Below, piece by piece: positions 6,453-50,136 of a DNA stretch of 64,000 nucleotides. The stretch is taken from the NCBI RefSeq assembly GCF_040712075.1, contig NZ_JBFCVL010000002.1:372001-436000 (forward strand). Direction: 5' to 3'. Source of the stretch: Fodinicurvata sp. EGI_FJ10296 (GTDB lineage Bacteria; Pseudomonadota; Alphaproteobacteria; DSM-16000; Inquilinaceae). Positions within the stretch are counted from its first letter, which is position 1; each line of letters starts with the position of its first letter. Under the pieces are notes generated by a model that was not told the DNA's origin, did not search any database, and saw only the letters and a program-made list of their open reading frames with translations. A program made the translations under genes and the position numbers.

Positions 6453-8276
6453 CTACTCGACTGTTACCGACTTGGCCAGATTTCGCGGCTGATCGACATC
6501 GGTCCCTTTGGCCACCGCCGTGAAATAGGCCAGCAGCTGAACCGGCAGGGCATACAGGATCGGCGCCACGAAGGGATGGACGGTCGGCATCTCGATGCAC
6601 ACTTCGGCCAGACCATCGAAATGGCTGCTTCCCTGCTCGTCGGTGAATCCGATCACGCGGCCGCCGCGCGCGACGACCTCCTGAACATTGGAAATGGTCT
6701 TCTCGAAGACACCGTCGGACGGCGCCAGCACGATCACCGGCACGCTGTCGTCGATAAGGGCAATGGGCCCGTGCTTCATTTCACCGGCGGCATAGCCCTC
6801 GGCGTGAATATAGCTGATTTCCTTGAGTTTCAACGCCCCTTCGAGCGCCAGCGGATAGGACGTTCCGCGCCCCAGATAAAGCACGTCCCGCGCGGAAGCC
6901 ACCCACCGGCTGATCGAGTCGATACTGTCGCCGTGATCGAGAATATCGGCGATCCGGGACGGTACTTCGATCAGGGCATCCGTTAATGCCCGCTCATTCT
7001 CTGCTGTCAGTACATCCCGGCCCCTCCCGGCGGCTATGGCAAGGCATGCGAGGACGCCAAGCTGGGTCGTGAATGCCTTGGTCGACGCCACGCCGATTTC
7101 CGGGCCCGCGAGCGTGCGCAAGACGACGTCGCTTTCCCGCGCCATGGAGCTTTCGGGCATATTGACGACGGATATGATCGTCTGCCCCTGCTCCTTGGCG
7201 TGCCGCAGCGCGGCCAATGTGTCGGCGGTTTCGCCGGATTGGGAAACGAACAGTGCGATGCCGTTCTCCGGCATCGGGGTTTCGCGGTATCGAAACTCCG
7301 ATGCGATGTCCGTCTCGACCGGAAGACCCGCGATCCGCTCGAACCAGTACTTCGCCGTCATGGCCGCGTAATAGGCCGTGCCGCACGCCACCATCGTGAT
7401 CCTGGGCACGACCTTCCAGTCGACCGGCATCGGCGGCAACGTGACCTGCCGGGTGCCGGGGTCGATATGGGCCCGCAGACTGTCGCCAATGACAGCCGGC
7501 TGCTCGTGAATTTCCTTGAGCATGAAATGGGCATAGCCGCCCTTGCCGACCATGGCACTGGATACCGAGGACTTCGTCACCCGACGTTCCACCGGGTTTC
7601 CGTCCCCATCCAAATAGGTCGCACCCGCTCGTGTCAGCTCGACCCGGTCGCCTTCTTCCAGATAGACGAGTTGCGATGTCAGCGGCGCCAGCGCCAGAGC
7701 GTCCGATCCCAGATACATTTCGCCGTCGCCGATGCCGACCGCCAGCGGGCTGCCGCGACGGGCGCCGATCAGCAGATCCTCCTCGCCGCGGAAAAGAATA
7801 ACCAGGGCAAATGCCCCTTCCAGTTGTTCCAGCGCTTGTGCAACTGCCTGGCGCGGAGGGTGCCCCTGGCCCAGCAGATCGGTGATCAGGTGCACGACGA
7901 TCTCGGTATCGGTCTCGGTCTCGAATTGGTGCCCCCGCTCAGCGAGATCCGCACGCAGGGCCTTGTAGTTCTCGATGATACCGTTATGAACCAGTGCGAC
8001 ATCGTCCGTCGCATGGGGATGGGCGTTGGATTCGCAAGGCCGGCCGTGGGTCGCCCAACGCGTGTGGCCGATGCCGCTGCGACCGGTCAGCGGCTTGCGC
8101 TCCAGCAGGTCCCGCAGGTTCACCAGCTTGCCTTCGGCCCGCCGCCTCTGCAGCTCGCCGTTCACCAGCGTCGAGACGCCGGCGCTGTCATAGCCGCGAT
8201 ATTCGAGCCGTTGCAGGGCTTCGACCAACCGGTCCGCCACGTCGTCATGGCCAAGGATGCCGATGATGCCACACAT
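6453..8276 (-). CDS. glmS: Glutamine-fructose-6-phosphate aminotransferase (isomerizing)
   Basis: Makes glucosamine 6-phosphate from fructose 6-phosphate and glutamine, the first committed step to UDP-GlcNAc. After Met removal the N-terminal Cys (MCGIIGILG) is the Ntn glutaminase nucleophile, so the start is the ATG at 8276 and not the in-frame TTG two codons upstream; AGGAG lies 8 bases ahead. The glutaminase domain (about 1-220, with GHTRWATHG and SNAHPH) is followed by two SIS isomerase domains (SQSGETADT and STKAFTTQ in the first, GRGTSYPLALEGALKLKE in the second). It ends in KSVTVE as the family does. It lies 54 bp downstream of glmU in the same direction, a common pairing. Confidence 0.97.
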   Translation of the reverse strand: MCGIIGILGHDDVADRLVEALQRLEYRGYDSAGVSTLVNGELQRRRAEGKLVNLRDLLERKPLTGRSGIGHTRWATHGRPCESNAHPHATDDVALVHNGIIENYKALRADLAERGHQFETETDTEIVVHLITDLLGQGHPPRQAVAQALEQLEGAFALVILFRGEEDLLIGARRGSPLAVGIGDGEMYLGSDALALAPLTSQLVYLEEGDRVELTRAGATYLDGDGNPVERRVTKSSVSSAMVGKGGYAHFMLKEIHEQPAVIGDSLRAHIDPGTRQVTLPPMPVDWKVVPRITMVACGTAYYAAMTAKYWFERIAGLPVETDIASEFRYRETPMPENGIALFVSQSGETADTLAALRHAKEQGQTIISVVNMPESSMARESDVVLRTLAGPEIGVASTKAFTTQLGVLACLAIAAGRGRDVLTAENERALTDALIEVPSRIADILDHGDSIDSISRWVASARDVLYLGRGTSYPLALEGALKLKEISYIHAEGYAAGEMKHGPIALIDDSVPVIVLAPSDGVFEKTISNVQEVVARGGRVIGFTDEQGSSHFDGLAEVCIEMPTVHPFVAPILYALPVQLLAYFTAVAKGTDVDQPRNLAKSVTVE

Positions 8277-42893: not shown

Positions 42894-43649
42894 CTAATGC
42901 AGATAGGCGGCATCGAACTCGGCAATGCCGGACAGCCTGACGGGATCGAGGATCTCGATCTGGCCGGCATCGAAGGTGGCCAGGCCCAGTTCCCGCATTG
43001 TCCTTAGAACACGGTTCACATGGACGACCGAGATGCCGAGAATATCGGCCAGATCGTGCTGGTTGAACGGAACGCTGCAGGATTGGCCCCCATCGCCGGG
43101 GCCCTTGGATTTCAGACGCCAGGCCAACTCGCAGAACAGCATGGCCATCCGCTCCATCGCCGATTTCCGACCCAGCGCGCCAACCCATGCCTCGAGAATG
43201 GCGTTCCGGCGTGCGATCGCCTTGGTCAGCAACATTCGGAAGCCGTCATCGGCCGTCAGTTGGACATCGATATCCGCCACGGTGGCTGCGGCAACTTCGG
43301 CGTCTTCCATCGCCATAATGTCGAGACTGGTGCGCCGCGTGAATACGGCTTCGGCATTGATGAAATCGCCAGCCATGTAGATCGACACGACCTGACGACG
43401 GCCGTCGGCCATCATATCGAAGCCGAGACAGATCCCGGACCGCACGTAATAGACACGCTTGGGTATGCTCTCCTTCGAGCAAAGGTACGACCGTCGCCGA
43501 TACCAGCGGGACTGCGCGAAATACGTCTCCAGACCGCCCCGGTCGGTGGGCGAAGCGGACGCGGAAGGTTCGCGGTCGTCAGCGGGTTTCCGCCCCTCCA
43601 CCGGACCATCGGGGGGGTGCCCGGCAGGTTCGGATTTGTTCTTGTTCAT
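42894..43649 (-). CDS. Crp/Fnr-family transcriptional regulator
   Basis: A 251-residue regulator: a polar, probably disordered N-terminus (about 45 residues), a cyclic-nucleotide-binding-like beta roll (RVYYVRSGICLGFDMMADGRRQVVSIYMAGDFI), a dimerisation helix and a C-terminal HTH_Crp (FNQHDLADILGISVVHVNRVLRTM). The beta roll has a Cys in SYLCSKES and another in GICLG, but not the Fnr four-cysteine cluster; cAMP-binding residues are not evident. The start is the ATG at 43649. Its targets are unknown. It lies upstream of the EcfG gene and faces away from it. Confidence 0.85.
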   Translation of the reverse strand: MNKNKSEPAGHPPDGPVEGRKPADDREPSASASPTDRGGLETYFAQSRWYRRRSYLCSKESIPKRVYYVRSGICLGFDMMADGRRQVVSIYMAGDFINAEAVFTRRTSLDIMAMEDAEVAAATVADIDVQLTADDGFRMLLTKAIARRNAILEAWVGALGRKSAMERMAMLFCELAWRLKSKGPGDGGQSCSVPFNQHDLADILGISVVHVNRVLRTMRELGLATFDAGQIEILDPVRLSGIAEFDAAYLH

Positions 43650-44247
43650 CGTCCCAACATTCACCGCACTCTGACAATCCGCTACACGACTCCCGCCAGG
43701 TCCCCGCCTGGGTCCGCTCGGGCGCTCAACGCCAGTCCGCCACAATGGACACGCCACTGCCCGCCTTCAACGTATCCCTGGTTCGATGATCCATTGGATT
43801 GACGGCACTTCTCTTACGATCGATCCGCCCTGTCCGATCAGTGCCGATACCATTTCACAACGTCATCGCCGGCTTCATTTTTCTCGAACGGCCGTGGCGC
43901 TCCCTTTGTTCCGGCCCGGGCCACGCGTCGCCCGAACGACGCGCCATTTGGCATCCGCTCGAAAGCCGGACAAATGTTCGACAAAACGCATTCGAGATAA
44001 CCATTTTGTGAGTGAAATCTCGGGCTAGCCGGACTCAACTGGCATCAGAACGCTACAATGTAATTGTCTTGCCCTTATCAAATTAACATATGTTACTCGG
44101 AGATACCACCAATTGGCTACAAGTAGACGCTTGTGCAGCTACGAATTTAGCGCCACATTCGGAACTTAAGTGACAGACCATTTGTTACTGTTGCGAACTC
44201 ACGGGCGCTAGCCGGCGAAATCTGGGTTTACAAACGGAGCTAAGGCT
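43650..44247. other. 598-bp divergent spacer between the Crp/Fnr gene and ecfG
   Basis: It holds the candidate EcfG-type promoter at 44161-44186. The part from about 44040 to 44190 is clearly more AT-rich than its surroundings. The short frames in 43786-44028 have neither ribosome binding sites nor a coding-like composition, so I call nothing coding. Confidence 0.5.
44161..44186 (+). promoter_or_regulatory. Candidate EcfG-type promoter of the sigma gene
   Basis: GGAAC at 44161-44165 and TGTT at 44183-44186 are separated by 17 bases, close to the EcfG consensus GGAAC-N16-17-CGTT (one mismatch in the -10). It lies 62 bases before the ATG of the sigma gene and would give autoregulation. Confidence 0.5.
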
Positions 44248-44847
44248 ATGCAAGAGGCCGCTAACACACGCACGAAAATGCCTGCACCGAATCCTGATGG
44301 AGAAGCACCTGAAGCAATATCGGAACTTCTGGAGATGATCCCGGCGCTTCGCGCATTCGCGAGATCGTTTTGCCGAAGTCCTTATGATGCCGACGACCTT
44401 GTACAGGAAACCCTGATGAAGGGCATCGCCAATATTGACAAATTCCAGCCGGGAACAAACATGAAATCCTGGCTGTTCACGATCATGCGCAACACGTTCT
44501 ATACGGGCATAAAAGTCTATAATCGCGAATGCCCGGGAGCGGCCGACTGCGTATCCAGCAAGCCGTCCAGCCTGCCGTCGCAGGAATGGGGTATTCGCGG
44601 CAGCGAGATTACTCAGGCTGTATTCAATCTTCCCTACGAACAGCGGGAAGTCACCATGCTGATCTCGATGCTGGGGATGAGTTATCCCGATGCGGCTGAA
44701 ATCTGCGATTGCTCGATCGGGACGATCAAGAGTCGGCTCAGCCGCGCACGTCAGAAACTCCTTGAAACGACTGGCGAAAAAAGCCCGACCGATCTGATCA
44801 ACGGCAAGGATTTCCTTGGCGTTGCCGAGCAACGGGGCGTCCAGTAA
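44248..44847 (+). CDS. EcfG-type ECF sigma factor (general stress response)
   Basis: A 199-residue ECF sigma factor of the ECF15 group. Region 2 is at about 25-95 (PALRAFARSFCRSPYDADDL, then WLFTIMRNTFYTGIKVYNRE) and region 4 at about 120-180 (FNLPYEQREVTMLISMLGMS, PDAAEICDCSIGTIKSRLSR). EcfG transcribes general stress genes and is held by the anti-sigma NepR until PhyR is phosphorylated. AACGGAGC sits a few bases before the ATG. Nearby are a NepR-like gene and a reversed PhyR-like gene on the other strand. Confidence 0.93.
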   Translation: MQEAANTRTKMPAPNPDGEAPEAISELLEMIPALRAFARSFCRSPYDADDLVQETLMKGIANIDKFQPGTNMKSWLFTIMRNTFYTGIKVYNRECPGAADCVSSKPSSLPSQEWGIRGSEITQAVFNLPYEQREVTMLISMLGMSYPDAAEICDCSIGTIKSRLSRARQKLLETTGEKSPTDLINGKDFLGVAEQRGVQ

Positions 44848-45129: not shown

Positions 45130-45798
45130 TCAGTGAGATTGACGACCGCAAGCATCGCCGCCCATATGCAAGCGCGAGCCGAGACACTCATCCATGATCC
45201 TGTTCAACCAATCCAGCAGCGGGACTTCCCACGGCTTGCCCGCCGCCTCGGCGATTGCACGCTCCAGCGTCTGCGCGACCAGATGATCGCCTGTTTCTTC
45301 GCCACCGGTCATGACACGCGCAGCAAGGCGCAACCTCGGCAGCAGCAGCATGATTTCTGCCACCGACGCCTCGTGCCTCGGCATCGTGCGGGCATTTCCT
45401 TGCCGGCCAACCTGCCGTCGCTGCTGGCCCTTGGCGTCAGTTTCGAGCAGGTCACGGCCCAGCATCGCACCGATCAGCTTTTGCCGGCTGGCCGGCTTGC
45501 GCAGAAAATTCAGATGGATGAAGCGCGATGGCAGCTCGAAGTCGTCAGAACCAGTGAAGAATACGAACGGTACGCCCAGTTTGATCAGATCGTCTGCCAG
45601 CGGAAACACGGGACAACCGTTCAGATTGACATCCAGAACAGCGGCATCGGCGCGCGACAGATAATTCGCCGCATGCCCCAAAGACGGAGATGGCCCGAGA
45701 ACATTCGCACCGGCCTCGGCAACATAGCTCGCCAAATCATCAGCCAGCAGGAATTCGTCCTCTACGATCAGGATGTTCAAGCCCTGAAGGTTCCACAT
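45130..45798 (-). CDS. Response regulator with receiver then sigma2-like domain (reversed PhyR-like)
   Basis: A 222-residue protein. The receiver at about 7-120 has all key residues: acidic pair in IVEDEF, phosphorylated Asp in AAVLDVNL, Thr in FFTGSDD and Lys in LRKPASR. After a basic linker, residues about 148-205 (LLPRLRLAARVMTG, HLVAQTLERAI, LLDWLNRIMDECL) align with region 2 of the neighbouring EcfG (IPALRAFARS, DLVQETLMKGI, MKSWLFTIM). PhyR has the opposite order (sigma2-sigma4, then receiver), and no sigma4-like part is present here. A partner switch on the NepR-like protein upstream is inferred. The start is the ATG at 45798; a GTG at 45807 is possible. Confidence 0.8.
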   Translation of the reverse strand: MWNLQGLNILIVEDEFLLADDLASYVAEAGANVLGPSPSLGHAANYLSRADAAVLDVNLNGCPVFPLADDLIKLGVPFVFFTGSDDFELPSRFIHLNFLRKPASRQKLIGAMLGRDLLETDAKGQQRRQVGRQGNARTMPRHEASVAEIMLLLPRLRLAARVMTGGEETGDHLVAQTLERAIAEAAGKPWEVPLLDWLNRIMDECLGSRLHMGGDACGRQSH

Positions 45799-45852
45799 CG
45801 TTCCCACTTTCAGTCTCGGCGTCTACCGCCGAAAGGCTGGCGCGCCCTGTGG

Positions 45853-46059
45853 CTAGTGGTAATTCGATTTGTGAACGGGGCGCTCGTTCTCAAATTCCTC
45901 ACGTCGTTGGTCCAGTGCATCTTGAAGAAGTTCCGCAAGAATCAGAATGCGCTCCGGCACCGGCTCGTACTCAATATCCGTAACCCAGGACTCCCCGGTC
46001 TCATTGTCTTTCACCCGAACGTTGCGATCGATAATCGGCGTTCTTCTGGATTTCGACAT
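45853..46059 (-). CDS. NepR-like anti-sigma factor (divergent)
   Basis: A 68-residue protein beginning MSKSRRTPIIDRNV. AGGAG lies 7 bases before the ATG at 46059. The stretch EPVPERILILAELLQDALDQ matches the central NepR signature (EPVPDR followed by a Leu-rich helix), which wraps around sigma or the sigma-like domain of PhyR. The first NepR helix (LGRxLRxxYD in the family) is not recognisable, so it is a distant or altered member. It is 54 bp upstream of the reversed PhyR-like gene on the same strand, consistent with a nepR-phyR pair. Confidence 0.6.
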   Translation of the reverse strand: MSKSRRTPIIDRNVRVKDNETGESWVTDIEYEPVPERILILAELLQDALDQRREEFENERPVHKSNYH

Positions 46060-46486
46060 ACTCAGGCTCCTGGCCGGAAGAAATGGCCCGACACCCAAAG
46101 GTGCGGTATTGCGTGCTCAATCGGCAACCAACCGGGCCATTCGATTGCATCCCTTTGTCTCAATGTGCCTTTCGAGGCGCTTTTGGTCAACGATACAGTG
46201 TTATTTTGGTATGCCGGCGCTCGATTACACCGCCCTTTTGAGTCTGGCTGGGATGCACTATGCTGGATACTGATTGTGCTCGGCATTCAAAGGACAGACG
46301 TCCGCTGTTTGAGCATGATCAACTGCCGGCAGGCCCTGGCGGTTCCAATGACCGGCACCTTTCAGCGACACCGCGACGGCGATCGCTTTTCCAGTTAGAC
46401 TACCCTGGACAAGGTCGTGATCACCTGTGCCAAACCCGTGCCGGTTTCCTATATGTTAGCCGGGCCAATCTGGAACCGGACCTTCA
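46060..46486. other. 427-bp spacer between NepR-like and kinase genes
   Basis: Divergent promoter region for the NepR-like gene (leftward) and the large kinase gene (rightward). Short open frames exist but have no coding-like features. No EcfG-type site is seen close to either start; a GGAAC-N17-AGTT match (46321-46346, minus strand) is too far from the NepR-like start and has a mismatch in its -10. Confidence 0.4.
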
Positions 46487-49400
46487 ATGAGCATCGCTTC
46501 ATCCAGTTCCGCCATGACCGGAAATTTTCCCGTTGTCGGTATCGGTGCTTCTGCCGGTGGCATTGCAGCCATGGAAGCCCTCTTCAAGGGCGTTGCGTCG
46601 GACTGCGGCATGGCATTCGTCGTCGTCACGCATCTCAGCCCCGACCGCGAAAGCCTGCTGCACGAGGTCGTCGGCCGGTATACCGACATGGCGGTAAAGG
46701 TGGCAGAGGACGGTGTTGCGGTGGCACCCAACACCGTCTTCGTTCTGGGCGAAAATGCCGCTCTGACGATCGAACAGGGCCGCCTTCGACTTTCCCCGGC
46801 CGATGCGCTGCACCGCGAGCGCAAGCCGATCGATGCGTTCTTCAGCGCCCTGGCCCAGGATCAGGGCGAAAGAGCCGTAGGTATTGTCCTGTCCGGCGGC
46901 GATTCCGACGGCACCCTGGGGGTAAAGGCAATCAAGGAATATGGCGGGCTGACACTGGCCCAGATCCCCGACGGTTCGGGTCCGCGGAACCCCGACATGC
47001 CCAGGAGCGCGATCGCCAGCGGCTTCGTCGACATTGCCGTGACCGCAGAGGATATGGGCAGGAAGCTAATGGCGTTCGCCCACAGCTTCGATGCCATTGA
47101 TGTGGTTCCGAACAACGAGAAGGACGCTGAGAACGAGCTGAAGCAGGCTCGCGAGTCGATCCACGGCCTGATAAAGAGCCACACAGGCCACGATTTCTCC
47201 GGTTACAAGGCAAAGACGTTCATGCGCCGGGTAAAACGGCGCATGCAGATCGCCCAGGTGACAGAGGTCGACGACTACATCGCCCTGCTGAAACGGGACT
47301 CCACCGAGGTCATCAATCTTTTTCGCGATCTACTGATCAATGTGACCAATTTCTTCCGCGATCCGGATTCCTTCAGGGAGCTGGAAGAAAAAGTCCTGCC
47401 GAAGCTGTTTCACGGTCGGGATGCGGGCGACACAATTCGGATATGGGTCGCGGGCTGCTCCACCGGGGAAGAGGTCTACTCCATCGCCATCCTGATGGCC
47501 GAACAACTGGAGAAGCTGCCGGCGCCCGGTCCAAGGGTGCAGATATTCGCAACCGACATCGATGAACCGGCACTGGAAGTGGCCCGGGCCGCGCGCTATC
47601 CGGCACCGCTGTTGAGTGGCGTGTCGGACGAAAGGCGGCAATCATTCTTCCAGAGCGATGGCAGCAGCTTTGTGCTGCGCAAGGATGTACGGGAAATGTG
47701 CATCTTCTCGCCGCACAGCATCACCCGGGATCCACCGTTCTCGAGGATGGATCTGGTGACCTGCCGGAACCTGCTGATCTATCTGAGCCCGGAGGCGCAG
47801 GACCTTGTCATTCCCGCCTTTCACTACTCGCTGCGGCCGGGGGGATTCCTGTTTCTGGGAAGTTCGGAGAGCCTTAGCCAGCACGCCGATCTGTTCGTGA
47901 CGATCGACAAGAAACGCCGGATTTTCCAGGCCCGCGAACACGTCACTCGCATCGGCCGGTTGCCGGCCTTCCATGGCGGTACCGATACCCGGTCGCCCGG
48001 GGCCGGATTTTCCGGCACCGGCGATGGGCGCACAACCGGATACGCGCTGCGCCAGTCGGTCGAGGCGCGGGTGCTGGAACGTCATGCGCCGCCGCATGTG
48101 GTCGTCAATAACGATGGGGATGTGGTCTATTATTCCGCCAAGACCGGACACCTGCTCGAGGCACCACAGGGTGCGCCCACGCGGCAGATCCTGAGCATGG
48201 TTCGACGCAGCCTGCGTATGGATCTGCGCGCCGCACTGCGCGAGGTAACGGAAACACGCCAGCTGGCGGCGAGGGATAACATTGCCGTCGAATACGGCGA
48301 TGGCCGCAGCCAGATCATGCGGATCAGTGTCGAGCCATTCGACGATACAAGCACGCGGGAACCACTGTTGCTCATCCTTTTCGAGCCGCAGAGCCCGATA
48401 CGCAATCCGGGCGAGATCGCAGCGGAATGCGGACGCCGCCCGGATGACACGGCGGAGCTCGAACGGGAGCTTCGGGAAACGCGGGACCGGCTGCAATCCA
48501 CGATCGAGGAATACGAAACGGCGTTGGAAGAACTCAAGTCTTCGAACGAGGAACTGGTCTCGGTCAACGAAGAGGCTCAATCGACCAACGAGGAACTCGA
48601 AGCCTCGAAGGAAGAGATGCAGTCGCTGAACGAGGAACTTAATACCATCAATGCCGAGCTCAACAGCAAGGTCGAGGAACTGGACCGTGCGAACGCGGAC
48701 CTGAAGAACCTGTTTTCCAGCACCCAGATCGCGACCGTGTTCCTCGATCGCAACCTCCGGGTCCGCAACTATACGCCGGCGGTTTCGTCTTTTTTCAGTC
48801 TGCTGCCGTCTGACATCGGGCGGCCGTTGACCGACCTGTCCAACAATCTCGACTATCCGGAACTGCAGACGGATATTCGTATGGTCTTCGACACCGGCGA
48901 GATCCGCGAGCATCACCTGTCGCACGACGCCGAAGGCAAGAAATATCTCGTGCGGCTGATTCCGTACCGGGACGCCGACGAAAACATTCGCGGCGTCGTC
49001 GTGACCTTCATTGATGTCACGCGTCTGGCTAAGGCAGAGGAGCAGCAGAGGGTTTTGGTCGCCGAGTTGAACCACCGGGTCAAGAACATGCTGGCCGTTG
49101 TGGTCAGCATCGCCAACCAGACCCGCGCCACGACACTGTCGCCCGATGAGTTCAACGACGCCTTTGTCGGCCGGCTCCACGCCATGGCCCGCACCTTCGA
49201 CCTGCTGTCGCGCAGGAAATGGCAGGAGGCATCGGTGCGCGACCTCGTCACGCAGGAAATCGAGCCCTTCGGACTTGAACGTGCAATCCTCCATGGGTGC
49301 GACGATGTGTCGCTTCCGCCACAGCAGGGACTTGCCGTCGGGATGGTGCTGCATGAACTGGCGACCAACGCGTCGAAGTTCGGTGCCCTTTCTACGAACG

Positions 49401-49615
49401 ATGGCCGCGTCTTCGTGACATGGTCGGTCGAAGGGGATACCTTCCGTCTGGACTGGCGCGAGCAGGATGGCCCACCGGTCGAAGAACCGGGCCAGGTGAA
49501 TTTCGGTCTGAAGCTGATCAGAGGCGAGATCGAATACAAGCTGAATGGTGAGGTCGAAACAAACTTCCATACCGATGGTTTGAAAGTCCGACTCTCCTTT
49601 CTGCACAGCCCATAG
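46487..49615 (+). CDS. CheB-CheR-PAS-HWE hybrid histidine kinase
   Basis: A 1042-residue protein. Order: CheB methylesterase at about 12-190 (GIGASAGGIAAMEALFKG with the catalytic Ser, His in THLSPDRESLL, Asp in SGGDSDGTLG); CheR N-domain at about 205-265; CheR SAM methyltransferase at about 270-470 (WVAGCSTGEEVYSIAIL); a long coiled coil at about 655-740 (TIEEYETALEELKSSNEEL onward); a PAS domain at about 740-855; and an HWE kinase from 855. The phosphorylated His is 863 in AELNHRVKN, the N-box is HELATNASKFGAL and the family's WxE is in LDWREQDGP. HWE kinases commonly feed PhyR-type regulators. It precedes the receiver gene by 8 bp. Confidence 0.9.
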   Translation: MSIASSSSAMTGNFPVVGIGASAGGIAAMEALFKGVASDCGMAFVVVTHLSPDRESLLHEVVGRYTDMAVKVAEDGVAVAPNTVFVLGENAALTIEQGRLRLSPADALHRERKPIDAFFSALAQDQGERAVGIVLSGGDSDGTLGVKAIKEYGGLTLAQIPDGSGPRNPDMPRSAIASGFVDIAVTAEDMGRKLMAFAHSFDAIDVVPNNEKDAENELKQARESIHGLIKSHTGHDFSGYKAKTFMRRVKRRMQIAQVTEVDDYIALLKRDSTEVINLFRDLLINVTNFFRDPDSFRELEEKVLPKLFHGRDAGDTIRIWVAGCSTGEEVYSIAILMAEQLEKLPAPGPRVQIFATDIDEPALEVARAARYPAPLLSGVSDERRQSFFQSDGSSFVLRKDVREMCIFSPHSITRDPPFSRMDLVTCRNLLIYLSPEAQDLVIPAFHYSLRPGGFLFLGSSESLSQHADLFVTIDKKRRIFQAREHVTRIGRLPAFHGGTDTRSPGAGFSGTGDGRTTGYALRQSVEARVLERHAPPHVVVNNDGDVVYYSAKTGHLLEAPQGAPTRQILSMVRRSLRMDLRAALREVTETRQLAARDNIAVEYGDGRSQIMRISVEPFDDTSTREPLLLILFEPQSPIRNPGEIAAECGRRPDDTAELERELRETRDRLQSTIEEYETALEELKSSNEELVSVNEEAQSTNEELEASKEEMQSLNEELNTINAELNSKVEELDRANADLKNLFSSTQIATVFLDRNLRVRNYTPAVSSFFSLLPSDIGRPLTDLSNNLDYPELQTDIRMVFDTGEIREHHLSHDAEGKKYLVRLIPYRDADENIRGVVVTFIDVTRLAKAEEQQRVLVAELNHRVKNMLAVVVSIANQTRATTLSPDEFNDAFVGRLHAMARTFDLLSRRKWQEASVRDLVTQEIEPFGLERAILHGCDDVSLPPQQGLAVGMVLHELATNASKFGALSTNDGRVFVTWSVEGDTFRLDWREQDGPPVEEPGQVNFGLKLIRGEIEYKLNGEVETNFHTDGLKVRLSFLHSP

Positions 49616-49623
49616 GGGGTAGA

Positions 49624-49984
49624 TTGGCCGCAGGACCGCACGTTCTCATTGTCGAAGATCAATGGCTGATCGCCGAGGATCAGGCGAGTGGGCTGCGGTC
49701 GGGCGGATACCGGATCGCGGGCCCGGTGCCCAGCGTCGAGCGGGCGATGCGGCTTCTGGATTCCCAGCAGGTAGACGCGGCGCTGCTTGATATCTGCGTC
49801 AACGACGGGGATAGCTATGCCGTCGCCGACCGCCTTGCCGCCGCCAGCATCCCGTTTGCCTTTCTGAGTGGGCTACCCCAATCATATCGTTCCGGTCCAT
49901 CTAAGGAATATCGAGTTCCTGCCAAAGCCGGTTCCGAACGATACCCTGCTCTCGACGGTCAGGAAGCTTCTGACCGGTCGATAA
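49624..49984 (+). pseudogene. Single-domain response regulator with a one-base frameshift
   Basis: From a TTG start (49624), preceded by AGGGGG, the frame reads MAAGPHVLIVEDQWLIAEDQ, with phosphorylated Asp in AALLDICVNDG. After FLSG the frame breaks: removing one G of 49870-49872 restores YPNHIVPVHLRNIEFLPKPV and ends LLTGR at the TAA 49982-49984, giving the usual receiver end with the conserved Lys in LPKP. Read as it stands, translation runs into a hairpin repeat and ends at 50121. It could be a genuine inactivating mutation or a sequencing error. It is the natural partner of the kinase upstream. Confidence 0.8.
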
Positions 49985-50004
49985 TCGACACCGCCCCTTC
50001 TCAC

Positions 50005-50136
50005 CTTTCGGATAGGCGAAGCACGATCCGGGGCAGGGATTTCATTCTTGCGCCGCCTCTCTACCTCATCCCCGGAGGAGCGAAGCGACATCCGGGGACC
50101 ACACGCGCCGGGAGAGCGTAGACAGCGGGCCCCGGA
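50005..50136. repeat. REP-like hairpin repeats, family 1, partial copies
   Basis: A fragment at about 50005-50036 matches the end of the second hairpin of the family 1 unit. It is followed by a copy at 50070-50136 whose first hairpin is CCCCGGA + GGAGC-GAA-GCGAC + A + TCCGGGG. Here the inner stem has lost two pairs, and the second half is cut short. The repeats join the frameshifted receiver gene to the MFS remnant. Confidence 0.75.

Follow-up and report, generated by a model that had tools for sequence, protein, structure and literature searches.

A receiver-sigma2 protein encoded beside an accessory EcfG gene in Fodinicurvata sp. EGI_FJ10296, most likely a variant form of the PhyR-NepR-EcfG switch

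Gene content of the locus and domains of the RR-sigma2 protein

The window, a 64,000-nucleotide stretch of the Fodinicurvata sp. EGI_FJ10296 genome, contains a gene for a response regulator with a sigma factor-like tail, termed RR-sigma2 (45130–45807, complementary strand). The 225-amino-acid (aa) protein, read from a GTG start at 45807, consists of a receiver, a linker, and a sigma2-like domain; the initial annotation used an alternative ATG at 45798, three codons inside. A NepR-like small protein (core PVPERILILAELLQDALDQRR) is encoded 45 bp upstream on the same strand (45853–46098, complementary strand; 81 aa, with a likelier, internal ATG at 46059). An EcfG-type ECF sigma factor gene was located at 44248–44847 on the forward strand (Pfam Sigma70_r2 and Sigma70_r4_2), and a CheB-CheR-PAS-HWE histidine kinase gene at 46487–49615, also on the forward strand (Pfam HWE_HK, 3.3e-23; CheR; CheB). 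The EcfG and NepR-like neighbours reported in the initial annotation could both be confirmed, the latter, which had no Pfam match, as a member of a recurrent family with weak similarity to NepR. A receiver ORF directly after the kinase gene (49624–50121, forward strand) matched the receiver profile over aa 7–81 only, while the remainder, judged by eye, seems unrelated and may reflect a truncation or a frameshift.

The receiver domain (aa 10–117; 45457–45780, complementary strand) was assigned from invariant alignment columns and from matches to PDB sequences, the closest being Sma0114 (4e-12) and SdrG (7e-9), followed by PhyR (1e-6). The acidic pair E16 and D17, the phospho-acceptor D59, and K104 are present and were invariant in 19/19 aligned family members. 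The Pfam Response_reg match at aa 12–113 was weak (16.6 bits against a cut-off of 30.2). A FATGUY-like stretch, PFVFFTGS, was also found; the motif is given as PFXFATG(G/Y) in a passage of PMC5964349, and its alanine is replaced by F, Y, L, or S in the aligned RR-sigma2 family. The FATGUY single-domain receivers SdrG and Sma0114, which were the closest solved receivers by sequence and the closest rows in the receiver tree, have a similar PFxF-x-T/S-G/A-like stretch. However, SdrG, MrrA, and Sma0114 have no output domain, whereas the RR-sigma2 receiver is followed by a sigma2 domain.

The C-terminal domain (aa 149–215; 45163–45363, complementary strand) was identified by Pfam, profile alignment, AlphaFold2, and purifying selection. 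PhyR_sigma2 (PF22029) scored 31.7 bits at aa 155–189 (curated cut-off, 27), indicating a sigma2 of the PhyR/EcfG type, and this and Response_reg were the only Pfam matches in the window protein. Among 19 family members, Response_reg was matched in 18, PhyR_sigma2 in 15, and Sigma70_r2 in 3 (E ≤ 0.1). Profile-profile comparison (hhalign) aligned the C-terminal family alignment with EcfG region 2 (62 columns, 97.8%, E 8e-13), as initially noted from shared residues, and with sigma2 of three canonical PhyRs (60 columns, 86%, E 4.9e-6). Window aa 152–188 matched PhyR sigma2 among PDB sequences (9CB6; E 2.2e-6). The AlphaFold2 model, with a mean pLDDT of 85.2, predicted three C-terminal helices (149–167, 170–186, and 197–215; block pLDDT 89–95 for aa 151–210) behind a long, loose linker of low model confidence. 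No helix was predicted beyond the third one and no sigma4 was found in the Pfam search, in agreement with the order of domains described initially. Fold searches with the predicted model returned receiver-type structures only among the 50 matches listed in each, which neither supported nor weakened the sigma2 reading. All but one of the 19 members end in H, N, S, or Q, mostly preceded by a hydrophobic residue (LLH, YLH, HFH, LLS).

The NepR-like peptide and the accessory EcfG

A NepR-like profile was built from six small proteins encoded beside accessory EcfG genes, at loci without RR-sigma2 within 6 kb. This profile detected a NepR-like ORF in 18 of 24 RR-sigma2 loci (E ≤ 0.01) but in none of the 62 control loci, which surrounded single-domain or other receivers and among which L107, with a canonical PhyR-NepR-EcfG set, was retained. 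With a profile built from other loci, the window ORF received an E-value of 1.1e-7. In 13/18 loci, the NepR-like ORF overlapped the RR-sigma2 ORF or was no more than 184 bp away from it; it was absent within 3.5 kb in six of the 24 (L017, L026, L029, L038, L042, and L046). Four more plasmid loci outside the training sets, one of which (Paracoccus AK26) is nearly identical to family locus L074, all contained RR-sigma2, EcfG, and NepR-like genes.

The window peptide resembles NepR/RsiA in being a small protein with a putative P-x-R helix. Alignment of the NepR-like family with canonical NepR revealed a weak relationship (37 columns, 58%, E 1e-4; hhalign) with the register of the P-x-R helix kept. 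Pfam NepR did not match the window peptide and matched 1/17 relatives below the cut-off (E 0.075). Unlike in NepR, the first-helix motif LRxxY was not recognisable in most members, and their second helix is longer (LAxxLxxAL). A profile of the second half of NepR was enriched in family loci (p 0.0017), while that of the first half was not (p 0.25); the canonical NepR profile gave weak matches to the small ORFs of the family (≤10.8 bits; enrichment p 0.00016), several of the best being chance ORFs. These comparisons suggest that it is mainly the second NepR helix that can be recognised. Several members have a possible short helix ahead of the P-x-R helix, and the region before this helix in the Ketogulonicigenium peptide is much like canonical NepR; therefore, the loss of the first helix appears incomplete. 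According to passages of two reports, the two CnrY helices bind different sigma regions, helix 1 sigma4 and helix 2 sigma2 (PMC7406223), and CnrH-CnrY is superimposable on PhyR-NepR (PMC4598750). By this comparison, the second NepR helix would be the expected sigma2 binder, and a sigma2-only mimic would be consistent with a peptide conserved mainly there. A model of a read-through protein contained a confident NepR-like helix (block pLDDT 94 and 92). The NepR part of this protein could not be aligned with the NepR-like rows and was present in only three rows of alignment A6; the model therefore says little on docking.

Phylogenetic analysis placed the window EcfG together with canonical-locus EcfGs in a clade of 39 rows (100/99) against two outside ECFs, consistent with EcfG/ECF15, and in an accessory clade of 20 rows (100/100) with plasmid EcfGs including S. 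meliloti L204. The initially annotated neighbour is thus a real EcfG, although of the accessory clade and not a canonical-locus EcfG. At L204, a NepR-like ORF (6561–6737, complementary strand) lies on the opposite strand downstream of the accessory EcfG. This placement matches the unannotated ORF similar to RsiA1/RsiA2 mentioned near rpoE5 of S. meliloti in a passage of PMC6180224, and we infer from it that L204 is RpoE5. Through L204, the RpoE5-type EcfG shares the accessory clade of the window EcfG, whereas R. etli EcfG2 was likened by description and not by tree.

An EcfG-type gene was enriched in the fetched family loci (11/24, against 7/62 controls) and was not in the fetched stretch of the other 13/24; ten of these loci had also served to build the EcfG profile, and the counts are to be read as presence, not as E-values. 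Ten plasmid EcfGs were fetched by similarity, of which seven had a NepR-like ORF and nine had no RR-sigma2 within 6 kb (L203, labelled as lacking it, nevertheless has one approximately 3.7 kb away). The occurrence of such accessory EcfG and NepR-like pairs indicates that RR-sigma2 is not obligatory in cis. In Paracoccus liaowanqingii, the RR-sigma2 locus (L026) and an EcfG with a NepR-like gene (L205) are on different plasmids of the same strain; the partnership is therefore not always in cis and may here operate across replicons. The RR-sigma2-linked EcfGs had formed a private clade (100/98), which was rejected after the ten plasmid EcfGs were added (AU p about 1e-141). The HWE kinase was found in 14/24 family loci and 52/62 controls, so its link to the family is neither specific nor enriched. 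Ketogulonicigenium has RR-sigma2, NepR-like, EcfG, and CheR-family genes, which appear to correspond in kind to those of the window but stand in another order. EcfG-type promoter sites were not more frequent than expected by chance (strict, 3 against 2.3 expected; loose, 10 against 6.0 expected), and a loose site at 44161–44186 upstream of ecfG is not claimed.

Distribution and selection of the family

The scan of genome contigs revealed a receiver and a sigma2 domain in a single ORF at 18 loci among the best 80 of 290 related loci. These members belonged to Mesorhizobium, Ensifer, Shinella, a Bosea MAG, Rhodobacter, Cereibacter, Pararhodobacter, Paracoccus, Silicimonas, Tistrella, and two unclassified MAGs; one further locus, L102, was left out of the family rows owing to a stop after the receiver. 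Nine plasmid loci were found in addition, from Mesorhizobium, Martelella, Shinella, Ensifer canadensis, Paracoccus liaowanqingii, Roseivivax, Ketogulonicigenium, Paracoccus AK26, and Paracoccus yeei; a Tistrella plasmid record was common to the contig and plasmid sets. Overall, the family extends over Rhizobiales, Rhodobacterales, and Tistrella, and the architecture described initially in the window protein is therefore present in other genomes. Among 385 genomes sampled across the class, at least three had the full span with a full-length profile, and the same three scored above 70 bits with the sigma2 profile; the count is a lower bound, as 8 or 15 candidates were scored per genome and some true members score below 50 bits with the sigma2 profile. 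The spread is patchy, the window genome being the only one of 17 in its taxonomic family with the full architecture. No RR-sigma2 match was found in phage records. Plasmid matches were obtained with full-length queries but not, by tblastn, with the 76-aa C-terminal part by itself.

Both the receiver and the sigma2 domain are under purifying selection, as judged from substitution ratios in seven close pairs, three of them drawn from the same three Ensifer. The dN/dS was 0.05–0.22 for the receiver and 0.08–0.38 for the sigma2 domain, with dS saturated in one of the seven pairs in each case; for the linker, it was 0.76 and 1.0 in two pairs, 0.24 in one, and saturated in four. At two other sites of the window genome, a copy of the sigma2 domain shares 51 and 52 of 66 residues with that of the window protein, against which its dN/dS is 0.15 and 0.12. 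The copies (L002 1501–1878 on contig C17 and L003 1501–1812 on contig C3 of the window genome, G000) form the ends of odd ORFs of 547 and 503 aa, which have an N-terminal part in common and no other Pfam match. A remnant of the receiver end is kept in the C17 copy, and transposase-like ORFs were seen, by eye only, near the C3 copy.

In the window genome, which is 99.4% complete, profile searches did not detect a canonical PhyR. Its two best PhyR_sigma2 matches were ECF sigma factors, and it had no PhyR sigma4-like match over the cut-off, compared with at least one in 12/17 genomes of the taxonomic family, some of which are sigma factors by frame length. Pfam NepR gave no match over the cut-off either; this model is insensitive (14/142 class genomes over the cut-off), and its absence therefore means little.

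Proposed working of the module and alternative explanations

PhyR is the anti-anti-sigma factor of the alphaproteobacterial general stress response, in which an N-terminal sigma2 and sigma4 part is followed by a receiver. Like PhyR, RR-sigma2 combines a receiver with a sigma2 mimic of the EcfG lineage, has EcfG, NepR-like, and HWE kinase genes as neighbours, and presumably follows the same partner-switch principle. In PhyR, however, the sigma part comes first and the sigma4 half is present, and the RR-sigma2 receiver is probably of another branch. The module is most likely a variant form of the PhyR-NepR-EcfG switch, in which RR-sigma2, in the reading that we lean towards from these comparisons, would serve as a phosphorylation-gated, sigma2-only anti-anti-sigma factor for the accessory EcfG.

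The binding and phosphotransfer steps and the direction of control are those that we infer from this likeness. In unstressed cells, the NepR-like peptide would hold EcfG through its P-x-R-starting helix, docked on region 2. Under stress, an HWE kinase would become active, with the CheB-CheR-PAS-HWE protein encoded nearby as the obvious candidate, and phosphate would be passed to D59 of the receiver. The phosphorylated receiver would then free the C-terminal sigma2 domain on its flexible linker, and this domain would compete for the helix through which the NepR-like peptide binds sigma2, resulting in the release of EcfG. The sigma4 mimic may be dispensable because conservation in the NepR-like peptides falls on the helix that should bind sigma2.

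The mimic or decoy directed at NepR that the initial annotation proposed is plausible in kind, given a sigma2 mimic beside EcfG and a NepR-like gene, while the descent from PhyR that it implied is probably wrong. A decoy or buffer independent of phosphorylation, in which the sigma2 tail is always on the NepR-like peptide and sets a threshold while the receiver has a separate phosphate-hub role of the kind suggested for MrrA and SdrG, is an unlikely account. The grouping of the window receiver with single-domain receivers and the long, low-confidence linker would fit it, as would the canonical RT-PhyR', which binds NepR unphosphorylated, decoupled from activation, according to a passage of PMC12148442; however, the joint conservation of phosphorylation residues and both domains across orders fits coupling better. 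The sigma2 domain could otherwise bind another partner such as the RNA polymerase clamp, making RR-sigma2 a phosphorylation-controlled competitor rather than an activator. Region 2 is the clamp-binding part of sigma factors and the three-helix fold is retained here, but the EcfG consensus DADDLVQET has become AADRLVExT in the family, with the second acidic residue replaced, and a NepR-like partner is recurrent, which makes this quite improbable. Even less credence is given to a relic without function in the window genome. The two further C-terminal copies in odd ORFs and the confinement of the full architecture to one genome of its taxonomic family would agree with a relic, against which stand the intact ORF and active-site residues, the constrained sigma2 domain, and the partner gene immediately upstream.

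As to descent, the protein had been described as a reversed PhyR, and an ancestral PhyR that lost sigma4 and had its halves transposed is a rather unlikely origin. Both halves have PhyR relatives among PDB sequences, and the NCBIfam PhyR model NF006623 matched the window protein in two stretches, the best being aa 150–189 on model positions 4–43, with 42.5 bits against a cut-off of 240 (315.5 for the canonical control, L128). A tree built from 71 receivers split the family into two groups among single-domain stress receivers (14 rows including the window, support 93; 10 rows, support 98), and the PhyR receivers formed one clade behind a long, 100-supported branch; the AU test rejected neither a single origin of the family (p 0.577) nor its joining with PhyR receivers (p 0.505). 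The 32 single-domain receivers in the tree, which had passed a motif and length filter with Stenotrophomonas near-duplicates removed and four PhyRs missed by the motif, had been collected for their similarity to the family, and this favours their grouping with it; the AU test was run without seven of the PhyRs and without another six single-domain rows that were long or odd. The PDB ranking, in which Sma0114 and SdrG precede PhyR, is free of that bias. In a 66-column sigma2 tree, excluding five plasmid members and missing four PhyRs, 18/19 family domains formed their own group outside PhyR sigma2 with weak support (83); the Bosea domain fell outside this group, and one clade for all 19 was not rejected (AU p 0.622). 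The two trees and the PDB ranking therefore favour a separate assembly, and RR-sigma2 is probably the product of joining a hub-type receiver and an EcfG-lineage sigma2, not a PhyR with its halves swapped.

PMC3892343 reports two or more EcfG genes in half of the completed alphaproteobacterial genomes, notes that the additional ones have 'not satisfactorily been explained', calls NepR control of EcfG2 unclear, and finds no response regulator or anti-sigma gene near R. etli EcfG2. No controller for accessory EcfG paralogues was established in the literature passages on them, and no receiver-first or sigma2-only PhyR-like protein was found among the listed titles, opening lines of abstracts, and passages of open-licence papers, which is not proof of absence. 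Mext_0132 of M. extorquens, described in a passage of PMC4814048 as an EcfG paralogue of sigma region 2 alone, can be likened to RR-sigma2 by description as sigma2-only, with no receiver mentioned there. The RR-sigma2 module is thus a concrete controller candidate for extra EcfG copies and may be how they switch on. The module further suggests that sigma2 may suffice for a working sigma mimic, even with the domain order reversed, a point of relevance to the gating of mimics by receivers. A wider proposal, of which we are slightly more doubtful than confident, is that a second, separately assembled class of anti-anti-sigma factors, with a FATGUY hub receiver and a captured sigma2, acts with NepR-like peptides that have been reduced towards the helix binding sigma2, together providing the missing control of accessory, often plasmid-borne EcfG. 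If true, both partners would be a half-size PhyR and NepR, and the module could be the only such switch of the window genome, in which no canonical PhyR was detected.

Other genes were observed around accessory EcfG loci. A 146-aa sigma-like protein without a receiver, annotated as sigma factor-like, lies beside the accessory EcfG of Paracoccus liaowanqingii (L205 6696–7136) and is possibly a stand-alone mimic. A Crp/Fnr regulator recurs near accessory EcfG (window 42894–43757; L024 2290–3000; L200 8337–9083; L205 7232–7975), as do ferritin-like genes (L017, L024, and L198).
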